From assembly GCF_000189635.1 (NCBI RefSeq), contig NW_002476379.1, forward strand, positions 62,001-126,000: DNA of 64,000 nt, given 5' to 3'. A model generated the notes under the pieces. It worked only from the letters and a program-made list of their open reading frames with translations. It did no database searches and was not told where the DNA came from. A program made the translations under genes and the position numbers. Below are positions 36,338-61,534 of this stretch, piece after piece. The stretch is from Tetrahymena thermophila SB210. Its lineage: Eukaryota; Ciliophora; Oligohymenophorea; Hymenostomatida; Tetrahymenidae. The number at the start of each line of letters is the position of its first letter. The first letter of the stretch is position 1.

Positions 36338-39300
36338 TCATTCAATATTTTCTTTTAAAATACGTGATTAGCTACCTTTATTATATGATTTGCCATTTCT
36401 TTCTTATCTTATAGATAGATCCATGTTTTCTTTGAAAACCTAAATAGATGCTTAACTGTATTTTATTTAACTTGCATCTGACTCTAAATCCTTAGAGGCT
36501 GAAACATTAGAGTCTTTGTTTTGACTATTACTTTTGTTAACTGGAGCAGGATTAAGCTCTTCATATAATCTATATGCATCATCATTATCTGGATCTATCT
36601 CTACAGCAACCTGAATAAAAAAAAATTATAATTTATAATTTAAGAAAAAATATTTTTACCTTTATGTATTGACGTGCTTCGGATAAATTTTATTGTCCGT
36701 AGTAAGCCTAAGCAAGTTTAAAGCATGTATCAAAGTTGCTTGTACCATCATCATATGCTTTAAGTAAATGTTATATTGCTTTATCAAATTAATTATTATC
36801 TATATACAATCCTGCAATATAATTTCTCCATTCAACATTTGAAGGGTCTTTTTCTATGGCTAATTCAAAATTAATCAAAGCGTTCTCGTAATCATTTTAA
36901 ATGTAATATACATTTGCCAAATTATAATATGCAGAAGCATTAGTAGTATCTAATTATATACACTCTATGTAGGCTTACTAGGCCTCTTCATAGTTATTTT
37001 AAGTACAATATGCATTACCTAAATTATATAAGCAATTAGGTCTTTTGGGGTTAATTTCAAGACATTATTTGTAATAGTAAATAGCATTTTCCACATCATC
37101 TTTAGTGTAATAGCAGTCAGCTAGATATTGTAATGCTTCATCATCTTATTTATTCTTTAAGAGGTTCTCATATTTTTCTATTGCTGTATCATAATTTTCA
37201 GTAAAATAATAACAGTTAGCAATTCCTTTCTGAAGTTAAAAATCATTTGGATTAAAAACTAAACCCTTTTGGAAATACATAAGAGCCTTTTCAGTGTTAC
37301 CAGTTTCTTAAAATATGGTACCTTTTATATTAAAAAAAAAAAATTATCAATAATTTAAATCATGTTAAAATATATAAATACCTAGCTACTACCATGCATC
37401 TGCATTATTAGGATTTATACTTATACATTATTTAAAGCACTCAGCTGCCAATTTAAAATCTTTTCTCGATTGGTATGCCATACCCAGCTAGAAATGTGCC
37501 TTACTATACTTAGGTTCGATGCTTATAATTTGCTTGAAGCAATCAATAGCACGATTTATATTGTTAAGCTTATTTAAATATATCTTGCCTAGTCTTAAAT
37601 TGCAAATTAAATTATTAGGATCTTTGGAAAGAGCTATTCTATTAATAATTTATTTATTAAAAAATTTAAATGATATAAAAATAAATTAATTTAAAAATTT
37701 ACTTAAAGTATTTTTTTGATTTCTCAAATTCTCCTTTCAAGCTTAAAATAGTAGCATATTCTATCAAACTTGGGATATGTTCTGAATTTTATTCTTTTAA
37801 AAATAACATTTGAATAAGAAAAAAATTTTTTTAAAATAAATAATTACATAAAACTTTTTTGAAACATTCTCCGGACTTAGTTATTTCTTTATTTTTAAGG
37901 TATAATGTGCCTAGGTAATACATTGAATTTATATTGTGTTCAGGCCTCTAAATAGCAAGTTCTGTGAATTTAATTGCATTTTCTAATTCTCCCTATTTAT
38001 CATAGAGTTTTCCTAAACTTATCAAACACTCATAATTATTTTCATCTAACTGTATAGCATCAGTGAGGTATTAGAAAGCTTCTTAAATACTATTTTCTTC
38101 TTTATCTTACTCTAAATAAATCTGTCCAAGCTTTACTAATATTTTAATATCCTAAGCGTTCAGAGAAAGAGCCTTAGAAAAATTATCTATGGCTTCTTTA
38201 ACTTTGTTTTCTTAAAAGAAAATTGAACCAAGTTTGTAAAAGCATTTATAGTCTTTTTAGTCATTTTAAGCAATAGCGTTTTCAAAGCTTTTTTTAGCTT
38301 TCTCTAAATTATTAAGCTTTTTAAAGCACTTTCCGATTCTTAAGCAAGAGGTATATTTATCTTGAGAATATTTGTATTAAATTTTATAGTGTTCTAAAGC
38401 TTATTCCCAATTTTATGTTTGAAGGAATATTTCTGCTATTGCAAAATGAATTCTTTCAGGCATGAAATCAGGCTATAACTCAGCCACCTTTAAGAAGTTT
38501 AACTTTGCATTTTCAACATCATTATCTTCAATCGAAATTATACCTAATTTATAATGAGCCATATAAGCCTTTTCGTCTTAGTTTCTAATCATATTTTCAC
38601 ATATTTACTTAGTCCATGAATCAAATTCAGGGGGTAATTATGATTAGAGATTTTTCTTACTCTTTTTACTTTTACTTTTTTTTGTAAGATTATTATCACT
38701 CATAAAAGAGTCTCTGTTAGATTCTAATTCTTTAGCAGAGCTGTGTAAAGTAAGGAGCCCTCTTTTCTCATTTTCTTCGTCATTAGAGTTATTTTAAATT
38801 AGTTTATTGACTAAATATTAATTTTAGTGATTATCATTCTCGAGTACGTTATCTTCTTAGGATTTGCTTTTAGAAGGAGGGGATTTCTCACCTTAAAGCA
38901 TTTTAACAATATCTTACTCTTCAGATTAAGTTCTTCCTTACTATTCTAATCCTTCAATATTTTAAATGTTCTGTTAATTTTCCTGGTTTTCTAAAGCATT
39001 AGAGATCAAATTTTCTTAATTATCATCTTTATTAATTTAGAGAACTTGCTGTTCTTTATTTTCTTCAATATTATCTTATTTTTCTTCTTTTTAGTCATTT
39101 TCTTCATCTCCATTTAATTATGATGCCTTTTATGTATCTTCTAAATCTTATTATTACTCATGATCATTAGGTTTTATTTCATCTTATTAATTCAAAACTG
39201 TATCATTCTTATCATTTTCATTTATAACAGGTTGGGCTTCAGATTCTTCTTTATTTTCAGATTAATCTTTTTCAACATCCTAAGCTTATTCTTCTTAATC

Positions 39301-42300
39301 AGCATCTTATTGTTAATCATCTAATTGTTTTTCTATTTAATTTTCCTAATTTTAGTCTTATTATTATTCTTCTTCTAAATTTTATTATTTATTTGATTCT
39401 TCCTAATTTTATTGATTTTCATCTTTATCCAACTATTCCTATTAATCTTCATTACTTCTTTCTTGCTAATCTTCCTAATTTTTAATCTCAGAATTTTATT
39501 CTTATTCATCTTATTATTTTTCTTATTCATCATTATCTTATTAATCTTAATTCTCTTTATCTAAGTCTTCTTTATTTTCAATATTGCTTTACTCTTCATT
39601 CTAATCTTAACCTTATAAATTTTACTATTAATCTAATTCTTACTAGTTTTATGGAGAATTTTGATCTTTTTCTTGCAATTCATCGTGTTATTGTTATTCA
39701 TCTTGTTAATTAAGTTATAAATCTTATGCTTATTAATCATCTTACTCTTATTTCAAATTTTAGTTTTAATTTAACTCGTCTTTTGACTCTTATTAATTAA
39801 ATTGTGTTTATTCATTCTAATTTTATTCTTCTTATTCATCTTAATTTATTATTTACTCATTTGATTAATTATTATCTTGGATTTATTCATGCTATTACTA
39901 TTCTTTTTCATCTTAGCTTATTGATTATTCTATTTTTTATTAATCTTAGATTTCTTTTTCACTATTTAGCTTATCTTATACTTCTTATAATTTTGATGTA
40001 CTATCATTTAGATTTTTTTCTGAATCATTGTCTCTATTTTATTAATTATTTTCAATTTCTTCGTTTTAACTTTACTCATCTTCCAATTATTCATTTTCAT
40101 CTTCTTTTTCTTATTCATGAGCTTGATCTGACTCATTAATATTATCTTATTTGATTTATTTCTGATCTTAAATTTGAATTTACGATGCTTGCTTACTATT
40201 TTCTTATTAATTATCCTAGTTTATTTGATCAATTTATGTTATTTATTAACTGTCTTTTTCATTTTATTAACTATCATGATTTTGTTCTATAATTTTAATT
40301 TCTTTCTCTTATTAATTTTCTAAAATTTCATTAGGGTTTTCAGAAATATTGTTGTTATCACCTTTATCGTCATGTATTTATTGTTATTTCTATTATAATT
40401 CCTCTTAATTTAAATCAGATTAATCTTATTTTTATGAATCAATATGTTTATCTTAATGATGCTCTATTTCTTAAATACTTTCTGTTTAACCTCCAATAAT
40501 AAAATCTTAATTTTAATTATTATGTGCAATTTCTTAACTTATATTATTTAATTTACTAGATCTAGCAGAATCCTATAAGCTTTCGTTTAATTTTTCAACA
40601 GATTTATATTATGTTACCATGATCATATACTCTTATTATTTTTCTAATTATTCATTAAATATTCTCTACTATTCTTCATCAAGTTATTAATTATTATTTT
40701 AATCTTTAAAAAAATTGATATTATCTTTATCTGAGATGTCATTTTATTACAGTTACATCTTTTCTTTTTTAGGTGTTTATGGGATTTATGTTTTATCTTC
40801 TTACTTTTAATCCTATTTCATAGAATTTTCAAAATTTTACTCTTCATGAGATTAATTTAAATTTTTTGGGGAATCATTTTTTTATTTCTAATTTTACTCT
40901 ATTTCCTATTAATGATCATTTTAATTATCAAATTAATGATGTTTATTTTGATTTTCTAAATTATTTTAAATAGTTTCTTATTCTTATTTTTTATGTTCTT
41001 AATGAGAATTTTAATTTTCTACTTAAACAGGTATTTGCTCTTGGGAATTATTATTATTTTATTTAGGCGCTTATTCTTACTAATTGATTGTTTAATTATT
41101 TTCTTTTTTGGCTTCATCTTCGTTTATTACATTTTTAGATTTAATTTATTAATTATTATTTTATTAATGGTTAATTTGAACATCTTTTTCTTAATTACTA
41201 TCTTCTAATATTTTCGATTCTTACTTTTCTTCATGTTTTTTATCTTAATCATTATCTACAGATTTTTTAGATTTAACTTATTATTAGAATTCTGCACTAT
41301 CTTTTGATTCCTTTTATTATGGATGCTCTGTTGATTACTTCATGTCTTCTGTACTTTTAGATATTTCTTATTTTTTATTTAAGTTATTTTCTGACATTTC
41401 TTTTAAATCTTTATTTTTTTAATTTTAACTATCTTAATGAATAGTTGGAATGTTTTTAGATTCATTTTAATGTTATTTTTCTTAATTTTTATCTTTATCA
41501 TGATTGGATTCTTTTTATTCACCTTTAGGTATTTAATTATCACTTTTAACATCTTTTTGTTATTAAACTTCAATAAGTTATTTGTCTTTTAGGATTTAAG
41601 AATCATTAAGCTATTCAGGGTCATCATCTTAAACTTCTTCTTTAAATTCTTCGCTTTTTATCAAGCTACCATTTTCTTAAATTATATTTATTTAAAAACC
41701 TATCTAATGTCTTGATCTTTATCCTTCTCCATGGTGTCGAGAATCCATCGAACTATATTATTATTACAACTAAATAAGTGGCTAGCTAGTATTATTTTCT
41801 TTAATGCTTTCTTAATGATCTTTAATTAATTATTAACTACTATTTTCTTCTTTCTCTTCAAAAGTGCTTTTTTTGTCAATTTTCTTTTAATTTGGAGTTT
41901 AATCACTCTATTTTTTTTATATTATCTATTCGGAATTTTTTTATTACTAATCTTGTTTTTACTATTCATTCTTATCTTAATTTTACATAACTTACTCTTT
42001 CTACTAATGCTTGGTATTATCTTATTATTGATCCTAAACTCTATTTTCTTTTACACTACTTTCAATTTATTAATTACTTTCATGTCTTTCAGGATGCTTC
42101 TCCTCAACCTACTATTTTGTATTCTATTAATCAGTTTTATCCTTTTTATCTAACTCTACTTCTTTTTTGCTGATAGCTGATTAATTATTACTCAAGTTAT
42201 CTTAGGTTTCATCCTTACTTACAACTCCTTCTTTTTTATTTTTTGTTTCTTCTACTTTGTTTTCTTTTTAACTATGCTCATTCTAATTAGTTTCATGATT

Positions 42301-45300
42301 ATTTTTATCATTTATATTTTTATTTTTTAATTATTCTTTTATTTATTAACTATTTTGATCTAATTAATTTTTAGAGATATCATTTTAATTGTCTTTTTAT
42401 TATTCAACTTTCATTTCCTTTACCTGATCATCTTTGTTTTGATTGGTATTTTACTAATTGTTTGTATTTTATTCATCTTTTACAAGACTTTAATTCTATT
42501 CTTTCTCTATCTTTTGAATATTTGGTTTTTTTTCAGTTTCATTAATTTCTATTTATTTTTATATCAAGCTTTACTTTCTTTCTTATTCTTATTATGGGTT
42601 ATTTTCTTTAAATGTTGAATGCTTGCTTTCTCCTTTCTAATTATCTTTTTAGATTTAATCTTATTTTAGAGATTCTGAAGTAAAATTCTATTCTTTTTGT
42701 TTCCCATGCTAATCAGCTTAATTAGGTGAATTTAATCCACTTTCTGACTATTATCTGGATATATCATCTTCTTCTTTTTCTTCTTTAATTTTTTAATGTT
42801 AGATAGGAGTTGAAGATAAATTATTTGTTTCTTTGAGGGATTTTTATGAGCCTATTGAATTCTATTTATTAATTTATTAGTTATTCACTTTCTTATTTTA
42901 ATTTTAGTCTTCGGCATAAGCTTTTTATTACTTTTAACTTTAAGGTGTTTAAACCTTTTCAGGCTAGTTTGATAAAACTTTTTGTTTAGGAGTCGACTAG
43001 TTTTATGGTGTTTCTGAATTTTTCTAATTTTGTTTTTTAGAAGGAGTGGAGGTTTGTGAAAATTATTATTCTGAAGCTTTAGAAACACTTTAAGATGCTA
43101 CATTGTTATTTTTTTAAATTGTAATTTTTGAGTTCTCTTGAATTTTTAGAGGTGTTTTGTCTTCTAAATTTACTTAATTATCAGAATTATTTATTTTTTG
43201 AGTTTACCCATTTACTTATTTTTACTGATCTAAATTAGATTACTATTATTTTGGGTTTTATGCAGAATTCTAAGCATTTTAGCTTTTATCAGTTACACTT
43301 ATTTACTTTTCTTTTTCTTCACTTCTTTCTTAACTTTTTGTTTGTTTAATTTTACTTTATGAATCACTCTGCTTAATTGCAAATTCACTTTTAACTTAGG
43401 GCTTAGATTTTTATTAATTATCTAAGTTCATTAAATTATTTTACTTTATGCTAGTTTAGCTACTCTCAGCTGCCATAGAATTGTTATCCTTTTTTGAAAT
43501 TTAATTTTCTGCTTTTTACTAAATTTATTTGCTGCTATCAATACTAGCAAGCTTAATTTATTAGTTAGGCTTAATTGTAAAATTAGAATTTGACTCTTTG
43601 GTTTAGTTTTATTTATGAGCATTTAATAACGTTTTATTGCTTTCTGGAGATTAACTTAGCTCAACTTAAGGTTATTTTGGTTTAGTAAGTCTATCAAATA
43701 CTGGGTTGTTTACCTAATTTTGCTAACTCCAATTCTTATTTATCTACTTTGGAGCTAATTCTAAAGAGGATTTAACATTAGGATCTTCTTTAGGTAGTTT
43801 TTTAGGTTTTGAAAGCTTATCTAAATAATTAAAATTAAATTATCTACCTTCTCTATTTGGTTAAGTCATATTTCCTCCATAATTATTACTTAAGTTTTAT
43901 TTATCACTATGTGAATTAAGTGATGTCTTTAGTTCAGAAGATCCCTTTCTTAATAAAATATTCTTTTTAAACTTATTTTCATGAAAAGAAATAGATAAAT
44001 TTTGTTTATTTTATCCCGTTAAAGGCTTTTCTAAAATAATTCTTTCTCCTTAATGATTATTATTATTATTATTGAGATTATCACTATTTTTAAATTTATT
44101 ATTTTTAAAGAAATTATTAATTTTGATGTCATCTTTCTTGCTATCAGGAGATAATTTATTTATTTATTATGTTTTTAATTAAAATTAGAAAGAACCTTTA
44201 TTAAATCCTTTTAATCCATCAGTTTATGCCATTTCATTTTACTTCTAGTTAAATAGAATTTTTGTTCCATTTGATTCTAAAGATTGTGGAGTTTAGATTT
44301 AGCGGAAATTATTGGAGCTCAGTTAAAATTAATTTGATTGAGATCCTTTCTATTTGACAGGGAAGAGTCTTTTTTGTTATGAGTTCAAAGGAGGCATAGT
44401 ATCATGATTTTAGCTAGAAGAATAAAAAGTATATTACTATCCTTGAGGTGGAGGATTGTTATAAGAAAAATGATAATTTTTTGTTGAGAGCCTTTTAAGT
44501 ATTTTATCTTTCATTTCTGCTATCTTCTATTCAAACTCCTTGCAGTTAACTATGTCACTAAAATTTTCTAAAATCTTTTTAAATAAATAATTTTTAATTA
44601 AACACGAAATTTTTGAAGAAAAAAAAATATATTAATAATTAATTACTGTCTCGTATACAGTTAATGAGCTTTCATATTATCCTAATTTTTCAAAAATAAG
44701 TCCTTGATTAACATACGAGAGTAGATTTAAAGGATCTCTTTCTTCAACTTCTGGGATTTAAGTAAATTACTAAAAGGCCTGGAGGGCAGATATTAACTTA
44801 TTTTATTTAAAGAGTAAGACACCATGATTGTAAAGAATAGAAGGAGTGAATCCATTTTACTTTCTAAGAATCTTTTTAAAAAGAATATCGGCCTATTTAT
44901 CTTATCTTTTTTCAGCTAAGATAATGTTTAAATTATTGATAGCTTTTTCATCTCTTGGCTAGTATTTTAAATGACTTTCTAGCAAAAGTCTTGACTGCTC
45001 TAATTCCCCTATACGAATCAGCAAGTTGCTATAATTTACTACAGCCCCACTGAAAGAGCTATTTAATTTTAGTGTCTTTTAGTTATTAAAAATAAAATTT
45101 TTAAATAAATAACTATGCTAAATATTTATTTACCTTATCATAGTTCACTTAAGCATTGTAAGTATCATTAATTTTTTCATAAGAAAGAGCTAGGTTAAAA
45201 TACACTCTGGCATCTTAAAAATTTTATTTACTTAGCATCTCATAATATTTAATAGCGTTTTTATAATCACTCAACTCATAATAGCAAGTTGCGATATTGA

Positions 45301-57140: not shown

Positions 57141-60100
57141 TCAGACAATGGTTATTTGCATTGAGCTTAGTCCTATTTTTTGTAAGGCATCAGGTGCATT
57201 TCTATTGAGACCTGGAGGTCCACAGACATATGCTCTATTTACTATAAGATTTCCTAAATGTTTTTCAAAATATTCTTATGTAAAGTGCTGATTATCCATA
57301 GTAATATTTCTTGAATGATATCCTTTAACAGATAATACGGCATCGAATAAATTAAGATTATTATCAAGATCAATTTATTTCATGAATTCTAATAATTATA
57401 TAGCACCACAATCATCATCAGAAGAATTAAAAGCTGCAATAACTTTAATCTTAAAATCTTAGCTTATGAATCTTGCAAAATTATCATTAGCAATATCGAA
57501 AAATTTAGCTACTTATTCACCATGCTTTTTTTGAATAGCCTTGAACATCAAGTACTTACAGTAGTAAGTTAATAAATCATAAAAAGGAAGTATGCCAGTA
57601 CCACCTGCAACGAATAAATGCAAACCAGAAGATTTACTGCTTAATTCTAAACCTCTTCCCTATTTAAATGAATATAGTTTAGAATTTATATGAATTTAAA
57701 ATAAAATATTTACCAAAGGACCCTCAACAAGCATTTCTAAAGATTATGCTTAATTGCTAGTTTCGTCATGTATATATTGAGATAATCCAGTTGGAGATTC
57801 ATAACGCTTAATGACAAGAGGTAAAACATTACTTTCTTAAGGAAGTGTACTATCTATAGTCGATTAGGGTTCTTAAATTAGTTAAGAATAGTTTTATTTC
57901 ATTTTTTGCATCAAAAGAATATTATAAGGAGTGAAACAAAGGCAGTTTGTATAAATTCTAGTAGATTTTTCATTTGCTAAATCTGAAAGAGTATAATGTC
58001 TGCCCATCCATTCCATACCCTTTTAGGCATTTTATACTTTAATACGATTAAGAGATTCGAATTAGAAGAGAGCAGTGGACTTTGATAGATATTTTTCTTT
58101 AGAAACTCTCCAAACATGATGAGATCCGCTCGATTCACTTAATATGTTTGGTTAAGACAAGACTCCAATTTAGTTTTGTTTCAAAAGCTAAGTTGCATAT
58201 AAAGAATGAGTATGAGGAGGCATATTAGTGTTTTCTAATCCGTATGAACCGTTCATGAACCTACTAACATCTCTTCCACGAACAGAGTTAAAAATGAATT
58301 TACCCCCAGGATGACTAATTTTGTCAAGAGAATAGATATTATCTTTATATATCACATAGTTCATATTTGGATATGTAGAAATGATCTCTGAAGTAGTTTC
58401 TATTTTTTTAAATTTTATTGTTAAAAAATATTATTTATTTAATAGTAAATTTTACTTGCTGAGTTAATCATATCTACTAAATTAGCATATCCTTCTTTAG
58501 TTGTGAGTAAGCTGTTAGTACTACTTAATGTATCAGAGCTTTCATCATCTACAGCAGACAAGAATAAAATCTTAACAAAGATTTTTGGTTGCTTTCTGTA
58601 AAGATACTCTAATATCAAACGTAAAACTATGAAAATTGTGTATCCACTAATGCATGCAGTTCTAGTTTTTTTAAAAAAAATTTAGATTTTGAAAAGGAAA
58701 AAATATTCTATTACTATTAAGCATCGTTTTCTACCATTCTGACTCCTAAGAAAACATTGATTTTTCCAATAACGTAGAGTAAATATCCAAAATACTTATG
58801 GAATGACTTGATTTTCAAAGATGTTGCATCTCCTGTATTCTTAAAGGAAAGTAGGAAATTTAAAAATGAGCCACCGACGGCTTCTAAAATAAAGAAAATG
58901 AGGAAGATGAAACCCATAACTGCATGTGCTCTGTTCATTTAGTCTTTAGTATCAAGTTAACCATTGAAAAGTATATCCTCTGTATAAATTAAGAAAATGA
59001 AAATGTTTAAATAAAATTAATAATTTTTATAAAAAAATAAATGAATAAATTTTACTCTTTGTGATCATCCAAATCTCTACAAATGCAGTAAAGACAACTA
59101 TTATGCCCATCATAGCACCATGAATTTCTTTATAAAATCTTCCTGTTTTGAAAAAGCGAGCGATTACGAAAGCAACATCGACTACAAATCCCCATAATAC
59201 AAAATTAGACCAAAAATGGAACTATTTATAAGTGTCATCAATAGCAATTCCTGTTATGGTACCTCTGTAACCTTATTATAATGGGAATTTTGCTAAAGCA
59301 ATGTTTTAGTGATGGTAAGTCATAGAACCATCTGATCCCCAAGCATATACAATATTTAACATTTAGTCTTTCTACAAAACGTAATCGTATTTATCTCCTG
59401 TGTCGAGCTTACGAGAAAATTTGAATGTTAACTATTTGTCTGTCAACTCATAACCTAACAAATTTAAATTGTTTTATCCTCCCAAATTTGTATCTGAACT
59501 AGGAGTTGCTTCTTTTTAAGAATAGTTGTCTGATAGAGTAACAACACCTGAATCATTTTCGGCTACAATCATATCAACATTATTCATACCTTAGCCAAAT
59601 CCAAAACCAAACCAACCAGTATTCTAGACAACAATCATAAAAGTTACACTTCCTTCTATTGCTAAATCAAACTAAACATTTAAGAAATTATCTTGAGCAT
59701 AAGATGATAAAGGCTTAATATCGTTGGTTACGCAATTTTCTCCTATTAAAACTTAACCTGTTGGACAACTTTTAGGGTTGTAATAAAAATTAAGAATGCC
59801 ATTTCCTGTGTTTTTACCATGGAATTGAATATTGTCAACTGTATTCATCCATGCATAAATAATACCAACTTTAGAATTTTTCACAAATTGATAATCGTAT
59901 TTATCTCCAGTATTTATTTTACGTGACACCTTTACTTAAGTTTATTGTGTTTATTTATTTATGCTATAACCTAACAAGTTATAATCTGATGTTCCTTTTA
60001 ATGAAATATCTAAATTAGGGACAATATTTTTGTTTGCAAAAGTGTCCTAAATATAAATAGCAAGTGATTCATCTTACAGAGTGATTGTATCAAATATTAT

Positions 60101-61534
60101 GATATCAACATTTGTCATATCTTTTTTCCAATTATCATCAGGTTGTTATAAACTAAAACCAAAGCCAAACCAACCTATATTATTTATAGTGAATACAAAT
60201 TCAATAGTATCATCATTCACTATTCCGTATTATACATTTAATAAACCAGCATTGTAATTAGCTTTCTAGTCAAGACCTGTTGTAGAAAGGTTGTTATCTA
60301 AACACTAAGTGTTAATGTATACTTTATTAACAGCAGCGCAGGGTTATGCATCTGAAGCTTGCAAAACAAGAGTACCCCAACCTATGTTAAATTTATGATA
60401 AATTAATGTCAAACTAAAAGCATCAGCAGGAGACAAAGCATAAGCAAAAGGAATTTCTTAGTTATATTAGAATTAGAAATCATTATTGACATCCTAATTT
60501 GCCATTTTACGAACATATTTTACTGTAACTTAGTTTTATTCTACTAAATAACCTAGAACAGTAATATCATATGTACCACCAAGCATAGTGTCGTATTTTG
60601 GTGATCCTGGACCTGAAGAGAAAGAATCATCTACAATAACAATAGGGAAATTTGGGTTATCTATATTTACGTTAAATATGTGCATATCCATATTAGACAT
60701 GAGATTGCTTCCCCAACCTATACCAAAATACCCATTAGTTAAGCACCTAACTAAAAAGGTAATATCTCCGCCTTAAGTAGTTTAATGACTTATGAAAAGG
60801 AAAGGATTAGCGTGGTTGTATGCTATGTAAGGATCTCCAATAGGAGTCAAATCGTTTTAGACGCATGTTTTTCCATTAAAAATTTAATTATTTTAACATG
60901 GCTAAGTGGCAGCATTTAAAACAAAGAAGAATGAACCAGTGTACCATTGATCTCTAGGATCTTTAGCAACTTTAGGAATACCAAATAAGACTCTGTTTAA
61001 CTATATTTGGTTTGATTAAAATAAGGTATCATATTGATCTTAAGTGTTATATTTTCTTCTTATTTTAACTAAGAGAGTAGGATTATTTGGGTCTGAATTA
61101 TTTGCAAGATAACCAAGTAAAACTATATCTTGAGTTCCTCCTAAAGAAACATCAGAAACAGGTTTTTAGGGGAAAGGTTGTTAATAAAAACTATCTATAG
61201 CAGTTACTATAACTGGATTATCTTCATCGCTTGATAATTCAAATTAAACAGCATCTGAGTTAATGTAAGTATCTCCAAATACTATATAAAATTCATCAAT
61301 TGTAGTCACAATAAATAAGATATCTAAGGAATTAGGGTCTCCTTAAGTTTATGCTATTTTTAAGGTCATTCTTTATGAACCTTGATATGAAGTATTAGCT
61401 TATGGTGGGACTGAAACATCATTAGTAGCACAAACTCCGTTTATCACTACTTATCCTTGCTAGCACTATAGTGAATTGGCAACTCCAAGTAATAAAACAA
61501 AAAGTAAAAAAGGGGTAAAAATTGCACCTTTCAT
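57141..61534 (-). CDS. DOMON-cytochrome b561-cytochrome b5-FAD/NAD reductase fusion
   Basis: Likely a membrane electron-transfer chain in one polypeptide. ATG 61532-61534, TGA 57141-57143; introns at 57660-57713, 58400-58455, 58662-58714 and 58980-59055 leave 1,384 residues. A signal peptide (MKGAIFTPFLLFVLLLGVANS) is followed by about four tandem DOMON-like modules up to ~residue 770. They repeat GYFGIGWGSNLMSNMDM, then GWFGFGFSLQQ, then GWFGFGFGQGMNNVDMI, with Met where heme ligands are expected. Next, ~residues 780-940 are a cytochrome b561-like helix bundle with His in IHGAMMGIIVVF, NRAHAVMGFIFLIFF and FHKYFGYLLYVIGKINVFLG. About residues 1000-1060 are cytochrome b5-like (KISHPGGKFIF and a later HTHS). 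The last ~230 residues are an FAD/NAD reductase with FVAGGTGILPF and RAYVCGPPG. Electrons would pass from cytosolic NAD(P)H to lumenal or external heme; this direction is inference. Confidence 0.85.

Follow-up and report, generated by a model that had tools for sequence, protein, structure and literature searches.

NOX/FRO and STEAP proteins are single-chain transmembrane pyridine-nucleotide reductases. The CYBDOM proteins have been described as ubiquitous yet poorly characterized (PMC10784544, PMC10784552). In 2024, according to the same two reports, the Arabidopsis CYBDOM proteins HYP1 and CRR were shown to function with ascorbate, with HYP1 reducing ferric and cupric substrates and CRR reducing ferric substrates. 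Laboratory yeast lacking FRE1 and FRE2 is described in PMC10784552 as producing ascorbate only when a precursor is supplied. Here we analyzed a window (the whole stretch of 64,000 nucleotides of Tetrahymena thermophila DNA) in which a gene of the minus strand, 61534-57141 in window coordinates, encodes a protein of 1384 aa. Judging from the sequence, this protein is likely a transmembrane metal reductase of the CYBDOM type, equipped with an NAD(P)H-FAD-b5 electron supply of its own. The original prediction had proposed a four-part fusion of DOMON, cytochrome b561, cytochrome b5 and FAD/NAD reductase. We found every named module in the window protein and the same fusion in five paralogs of its genome (C418A, C418B, C115, C13 and C122; identity, 24-34%); the six genes agree in the order of their modules.

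The signal peptide that had been claimed was recognized by hydropathy and by eye (about aa 1-21, MKGAIFTPFLLFVLLLGVANS; 61472..61534, minus strand, as are all features below). The repeated DOMON signatures were recovered as four stretches matching the Pfam DOMON model with 156.1 bits (cut-off, 32.7). The ligands for the extracytoplasmic heme suggested with them, the Met/His pair expected of a CYBDOM protein, are present in DOMON2 (aa 232-394; Met279 and His380; 60353..60841), DOMON3 (aa 417-586; Met473 and His572; 59777..60286) and DOMON4 (aa 610-755; Met650 and His741; 59270..59707), but DOMON1 (aa 44-208; 60911..61405) has neither the heme Met nor the heme His. Met and His occurred together in 10 of the 11 aligned DOMON domains, and both were absent in the eleventh, DOMON1 of the window protein. 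The idea that every DOMON carries heme is ruled out for DOMON1, since both ligands are gone, and three of the four DOMON domains thus look heme competent from their ligand residues. DOMON1 is probably a spacer or a binding domain.

The missing ligands of DOMON1 would also fit a different reading, in which the DOMON array, as an ectodomain, would mainly bind sugars or surfaces, with electrons exiting at the outer b561 heme and any DOMON hemes lying off the path. DOMON domains are described as binding heme or sugars (PMC10784544, PMC3591440). The DOMON heme ligands of HYP1, as presented in PMC10784544, were based on docking and the ligand mutants were mislocalized, so that on this account a DOMON heme in the electron path is unproven even in HYP1. 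Fe-Fe distances of 20.9 and 23.5 Å were modeled for HYP1 (PMC10784544). C13 and C122 keep b561-b5-FNR with no DOMON recognizable in the Pfam scan and no Met/His pair, which suggests that the b561-b5-FNR core may work without DOMON. However, the Met/His pair is retained in DOMON2, DOMON3 and DOMON4 of the window protein and in the aligned domains of C418A, C418B and C115, and we regard a mainly binding role of the array as unlikely.

For the CYBDOM-type metal reductase that we favor, the membrane module would be the cytochrome b561 core (58595..59218, a span that includes introns 1 and 2), to which five helices were assigned. The window protein passed the Pfam Cytochrom_B561 model (PF03188) with 25.5 bits (cut-off, 23), as did C418A and C122 among the six genes scanned as proteins. 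The four heme His residues expected of a CYBDOM b561, H773, H805, H845 and H887, lie on successive helices and are invariant in all six genes, which bears out the predicted b561-like helices with His. When the b561 family profile was compared with solved structures, one chain only was matched, Cytochrome b reductase 1, and weakly (E 0.15). Four of these helices were picked up by the hydropathy scan, whereas the fourth in order was placed from H887 and the alignment. Hydropathy and loop charges were compatible with DOMON outside and b5-FNR inside.

NOX enzymes have NAD(P)H and FAD inside and two membrane hemes, and the chain of the window protein would be topologically alike. The protein could accordingly be a NOX-like producer of superoxide or radicals or an oxidative enzyme, with an unchanged path and with oxygen or a radical, e.g., monodehydroascorbate, as the acceptor. 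The acceptor is not readable from sequence, and a strong ALO-family match in the genome makes ascorbate chemistry possible. Nevertheless, the membrane module is b561, and the Ferric_reduct transmembrane domain (PF01794) that characterizes the NOX/ferric reductase (FRD) superfamily was absent among the Pfam matches of the window protein at E up to 10. The discussion of PMC10784552 suggests that a DOMON relay would suit acceptors farther away. We consider a NOX-like function quite improbable.

The ALO match bears on the electron donor as well, since ascorbate or an analog is possibly made and would be a candidate donor; the proposal that the fusion arose in an organism without ascorbate is unsupported for the same reason. 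On the other side, the places of the ascorbate-contact residues R307 and N311 of HYP1, which were found by counting from H314 with HYP1 itself unaligned, are occupied by S/V/I and an invariant Lys in all six genes, and this difference from HYP1 hints against cytosolic ascorbate as the donor of the family. The genome also has separate ferric-reductase-type genes, and the notion that this family is its sole transmembrane reductase is unsupported.

The cytochrome b5 domain (aa 985-1066; 58152..58397) has the expected signature with two axial His residues, H1013 in HPGG and H1048, both invariant in all six genes. The window protein scored 19.1 bits with the Pfam Cyt-b5 model in the whole-protein scan, below the cut-off of 23.7, but its b5 exon scored 24.2 bits in a six-frame search of the genome, and four of the five paralogs scanned as proteins passed the cut-off. 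A b5 profile built from the six genes matched cytochrome b5 2ibj (E 2.6e-7) with both His residues aligned. The region of aa 760-1384 contains 16 His residues, of which 7 are invariant, including all six preset ligands; the probability by chance is 8.7e-4, a value that is not fully independent, as H1048 was preferred to H1046 using the family profile. When collections of prokaryotes and of viruses were scanned with this profile, no relative emerged (14 and 11 pattern matches, respectively, none confirmed). The one ciliate genome among the collections searched was that to which the window belongs. While the domain shares HPGG and the second His with 2ibj, its best solved-structure match, its heme loop is 11 residues longer in the profile alignment, and it sits fused behind a transmembrane b561.

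The reductase consists of an FAD-binding part (aa 1085-1215; 57651..58097, including intron 4) and an NAD(P)-binding part (aa 1222-1384; 57144..57632). The window protein has all three FNR motifs: the FAD motif RxYT (R1131-T1134) and the NAD(P) motifs GGTG (1231-1234) and CGPPG (1358-1362). RxY(T/S) and GTG are kept in all six genes; CGPP is lost in C115, and the first Gly of GGTG is replaced by Asn in C115 and by Ala in C418B and C122. The predicted FNR-like C terminus is supported by these motifs and by the family profile, but not by Pfam cut-offs. In none of the six genes did an FNR-type Pfam model for FAD or NAD binding reach its cut-off: NAD_binding_1 gave 14.4 bits in the window protein (cut-off, 22), and the closest match was FAD_binding_6 in C418B (20.0 bits versus a cut-off of 21.1), covering the motif equivalent to RxYT. 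With NCBIfam, FNR-type electron-transfer subunits were matched by C418A at up to 37 bits (E 2.8e-9) and by the reductase piece of the window protein at up to 20.3 bits (E 2.6e-4), far below the curated cut-offs of these particular families. Single-sequence searches of the PDB were not significant for either b5-FNR (best E 0.22) or DOMON-b561 (best E 0.21) of the window protein, so that family profiles were needed. The reductase profile of five genes matched NADH-cytochrome b5 reductase 2eix (E 1.2e-6) and other FNR proteins; 2eix was the best solved-structure match, and RxYT, GGTG and CGPP are shared with NADH-cytochrome b5 reductase. Fusions of b5 and reductase occur naturally.

The single continuous spliced frame that had been predicted proved exact in its coordinates. 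Read with the ciliate code, the gene starts with ATG at 61534 and ends with TGA at 57141; its frame contains 70 in-frame TAA/TAG codons for Gln, and TGA occurs once, at the end. The five exons join in frame around four introns, all GT-AG. Exon 1 (59056..61534; aa 1-826) encodes the signal peptide, DOMON1-4, b561 helix 1 and most of helix 2, and is followed by intron 1 (58980..59055; 76 nt, GTAAAA...ATACAG). Exon 2 (58715..58979) encodes the end of helix 2 and helices 3 and 4, and exon 3 (58456..58661), beyond intron 2 (58662..58714; 53 nt, GTAATA...AACTAG), encodes helix 5 and the linker. After intron 3 (58400..58455; 56 nt, GTAAAA...AAATAG), exon 4 (57714..58399) covers the b5 domain and the FAD-binding part, and after intron 4 (57660..57713; 54 nt, GTAAAT...AAATAG), exon 5 (57141..57659) covers the NAD-binding part and the stop. 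Intron 4 preserves the frame, which would allow its retention, but C418A, C418B and C115 read through this place with no insertion, and retention is disfavored; introns were assigned there in C13 and C122 and removed in their gene models. DNA tandem repeats within the gene amounted to four short rows only, with periods of 10-20.

In both C418A and C418B, the second part of DOMON and the complete b561 and b5 modules lie on a single exon of about 1270 nt, unbroken by introns, which makes a wrong splice or two genes unlikely. A false merger of two adjacent genes, DOMON-b561 and b5-FNR, could draw on intron 3, which separates the fifth helix from b5 in a predicted splicing model based on the reading frame and paralog comparison, but it is effectively ruled out by these uninterrupted exons and the same module order in six concordant genes. 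C418A and C418B are a tandem pair with a dN of 0.23 versus a dS of 1.23, and this, together with the recurring order in six genes, indicates that the fusion is more than chance.

The sequences directly give the order of the domains, the presence of the expected ligands and a fusion common to six genes; from these we infer the electron flow, cofactors and substrate of the metal reductase. The protein would carry up to six b hemes and FAD. On the cytosolic side, NAD(P)H would bind to the FNR-type module at the C terminus, and its electrons would pass via FAD to the b5 heme (H1013/H1048), then to the inner (H805/H887) and outer (H773/H845) b561 hemes and on to the DOMON4 heme (M650/H741), from which a relay of DOMON3 and DOMON2 hemes could possibly lead to an extracytoplasmic acceptor. 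The likeliest acceptors, whether located at the cell surface or within food vacuoles, would be ferric or cupric ions or chelates. For the self-contained transmembrane conduit originally suggested, perhaps a ferric, cupric or radical reductase, the expected ligands are in place, while its role and substrate are still predicted ones. It is a tentative extension, and one we doubt, that the genes form a ciliate family of ascorbate-independent single-chain conduits from NAD(P)H to the outside, in which three heme-bearing DOMON domains would lengthen the wire of the window protein to six b hemes plus FAD on a single polypeptide, a eukaryotic route by which electrons could be exported to distant or insoluble acceptors, e.g., ferric particles in food vacuoles.

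In NOX/FRO/STEAP proteins, electrons pass from cytosolic pyridine nucleotide and flavin through membrane hemes to an outside acceptor, and a similar path is proposed here, but with another membrane domain; among transmembrane reductases that use pyridine nucleotides in a single chain, the window protein would thereby represent one more membrane scaffold. The eFRE subfamily, ferric reductases of Naegleria and oomycetes that carry a DOMON (PMC3591440), also have an outside DOMON, membrane heme and FAD/NAD modules in a single chain; however, their membrane module is a ferric-reductase domain instead of b561, and the eFRE passages of that paper mention no b5 domain. With the CYBDOM proteins, as HYP1, CRR and animal SDR2 are described in PMC10784544 and PMC10784552, the window protein shares the signal peptide, a DOMON with Met/His that would lie outside, and a b561 with two His pairs and a predicted five helices, but it adds three DOMON domains and the fused b5-FAD-NAD module. 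It could thus offer a natural CYBDOM protein with a joined NAD(P)H reductase, in which the passage of electrons along the b561 and DOMON hemes would be assayable in one purified protein, and a DOMON array testable as a eukaryotic multiheme wire of noncovalent b hemes.

The window gene is modelled as five exons on the minus strand at 61534-57141 (exon 1, 61534-59056; exon 2, 58979-58715; exon 3, 58661-58456; exon 4, 58399-57714; exon 5, 57659-57141). The four introns between them are 76, 53, 56 and 54 nt long, and all have GT...AG ends. With TAA and TAG translated as glutamine (56 TAA and 14 TAG within the frame), the product has 1384 residues, and TGA is the sole stop of the reading frame. Introns 1 to 3 shift the frame by their lengths; intron 4 is in frame. 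Elsewhere in the window, a 2532-aa open frame (37543-45141, minus strand) is largely rich in Gln, Glu, Lys and Asn, and its C-terminal part looks TPR-repeat-like by eye.

Pfam scans of the window protein found DOMON in four stretches (156.1 bits summed) and eukaryotic cytochrome b561 at 25.5 bits against a cut-off of 23, which bore out the DOMON array and, by the HMM check, the b561 domain of the original prediction. Hydropathy analysis placed a signal-peptide-like N-terminus where a signal peptide had been claimed, and membrane helices C-terminal to DOMON4; the scan listed four of the five b561 helices, and helix 4 was assigned from its histidine and from the alignment. Because a short Cys...Cys segment precedes each DOMON (starting at residues 24, 213, 399 and 590), the predicted ectodomain comprises four copies of a unit made up of a Cys pair and a DOMON. 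These segments are 12-13 residues each (window 59732-61465), which suggests disulphide-stapled linkers between the DOMON repeats.

We found five further genes with the same module order in the same 101-Mb genome (G000), which is that of a ciliate by its code: C13, C418A, C418B, C115 and C122. In all five, a start that looks signal-like by eye is followed by an ectodomain, helices of the b561 type, b5 and an FNR-type reductase. They are 24-34% identical to the window protein across the part that was aligned, from which its first three DOMONs are excluded. The paralogue gene models were built by hand, with the choice among several fitting splice options made by eye, and the C122 model is without a short FAD-region exon. 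At the site of window intron 4, coding continues without insertion in C418A, C418B and C115, and C13 and C122 carry their own introns. In C418A and C418B, a single exon (1272 and 1266 nt, respectively) spans the second part of DOMON, b561 and b5 uninterrupted, so the DOMON-b561-b5 join does not depend on a splicing guess. Together with the five exons and one TGA of the window gene, these exons support the single spliced frame that had been proposed for the modules.

In protein scans, b5 exceeded the Pfam cut-off in every paralogue but C13 (23.3 against 23.7 bits), and PF03188 did so in two, C418A and C122 (C418B, 22.4 against 23). DOMON was above cut-off in C418A and C418B, under it in C115, and absent from the Pfam matches of C13 and C122. 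C418A and C418B form a tandem pair of single-DOMON fusions (G000:C418:243.7-246.3 kb and 248.2-250.8 kb; loci L003/L004); they are 65.6% identical (dN 0.23, dS 1.23), with dN below dS in all four domains. C13 (G000:C13:542.2-545.4 kb, L005) and C122 (C122:548.9-551.8 kb, L007) retain b561-b5-FNR, and their ectodomains have neither a Pfam DOMON nor the Met/His pair described below.

Across the six genes, 58 columns are invariant. In seven of them the window protein has a histidine: H773, H805, H845 and H887 at the expected b561 haem-ligand sites, H1013 (of HPGG) and H1048 in b5, and H1194 in the reductase. Given 16 histidines in residues 760-1384, the chance that seven invariant ones cover six preset positions is 8.7e-4, a generous figure since H1048 was chosen over H1046 after the family profile was known. 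The six-gene b5 profile matched a solved cytochrome b5, 2ibj (E 2.6e-7), with H1013 and H1048 aligned to its HPGG and GHS histidines, which we take to be the axial pair, and 11 additional residues between them. The proposed b5 domain was thus supported by this profile and by a six-frame genome search, in which the b5 exon scored 24.2 bits, but the whole-protein scan gave only 19.1 bits against the cut-off of 23.7. The b561 profile matched one chain, Cytochrome b reductase 1, at an E of 0.15, which is not significant by itself.

The five-gene reductase profile matched NADH-cytochrome b5 reductase, 2eix (E 1.2e-6; best single stretch, E 0.0015), and also other FNR proteins. The R-x-Y-T/S and GTG motifs are invariant in all six genes, and CGPP is present in five. 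The FNR-like C-terminus of the original prediction therefore held at the level of profile and motifs, but in all six genes the FAD- and NAD-binding FNR models of Pfam stayed below cut-off; the NAD-binding domain of the window protein scored 14.4 bits against 22 in the whole-protein scan, and the nearest match was FAD_binding_6 in C418B (20.0 against 21.1 bits), over the RxYT motif. The first Gly of GGTG is replaced by Ala in C418B and C122 and by Asn in C115 (G000:C115:111.1-114.2 kb, L006), which reads NGTG and has SGSY where CGPP is expected; the C115 reductase perhaps no longer binds NAD(P)H.

We then aligned 11 DOMONs: four from the window protein, one each from C418A, C418B and C115, and four from single-DOMON proteins. 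A frame-split fifth single-DOMON match on C40 and the C13 and C122 ectodomains, which have no Pfam DOMON, were excluded. Met and His occupy the columns of M650 and H741 of window DOMON4 in 10 of the 11; both are missing in window DOMON1. In the Arabidopsis CYBDOM protein HYP1, M90 and H174 were proposed from docking as DOMON haem ligands, and replacing either residue mislocalised the protein, which left their part in electron flow untested in HYP1 (passages of PMC10784544). In the PDB, the DOMON profile gave modest matches to dopamine beta-hydroxylase (E 0.00096) and nitrite oxidoreductase subunit C (E 0.0019). The small single-DOMON proteins at L008, L009 and L010 (two genes) carry the Met/His pair; by eye, they begin with a signal-like segment and end in a hydrophobic tail. 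They resemble plant AIR12 and are possible partners. A split DOMON at L011 is similar in look.

The inner loops of the window b561 carry more positive charge than the outer loops. From this charge pattern, the signal-like start and the five assigned helices, the b5 and reductase modules are expected on the cytosolic side. The module order would then most likely trace an electron path, in which electrons from NAD(P)H would pass through FAD to the b5 haem, then to the inner and outer b561 haems, and then through the DOMON haem(s) to an acceptor outside. For HYP1 and a second Arabidopsis CYBDOM, CRR, passages of PMC10784544 and PMC10784552 give cytosolic ascorbate as donor, modelled close to R307 and N311 of HYP1 (PMC10784544), and as acceptors ferric ions and, for HYP1, also cupric ions. 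At the equivalent positions, set by offsets from the published numbering with HYP1 itself outside the alignment, all six ciliate genes have S/V/I rather than Arg (7 residues before the fourth b561 histidine) and an invariant lysine rather than Asn (3 residues before). Since a genome search gave a strong match to ALO, a family of enzymes for ascorbate-type synthesis, these residues give only a hint that the fused reductase replaced ascorbate as donor.

All three b561 Pfam matches in the genome (E up to 10) and all seven b561 protein matches, in six genes (E up to 1), belong to the fusion family; the Pfam search overlooks three known members, and a separate divergent b561 could escape likewise. 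The fusion family would not be the sole route, because the genome also carries ferric-reductase-domain matches: seven have an E of 0.01 or less, of which six lie on C125 and one on C341. The six PF01794 matches on C125 lie in a row (G000:C125:211-236 kb), apparently as tandem genes.

A single-chain DOMON-b561-b5-reductase was described neither in the titles and abstract openings of the literature matches listed, which cover the literature in part, nor in the passages of related papers searched. This is no proof of novelty, and eukaryotic protein databases may list such a protein. DOMON is often fused to further redox domains, such as FAD/NAD-binding oxidoreductases (passages of PMC10784552). 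The nearest proteins described in these sources are the CYBDOMs and, from Naegleria and oomycetes, ferric reductases that bear DOMON. The CYBDOMs share DOMON and b561 with the window protein, whereas the Naegleria and oomycete ferric reductases, as portrayed in passages of PMC3591440, have a membrane domain other than its b561.
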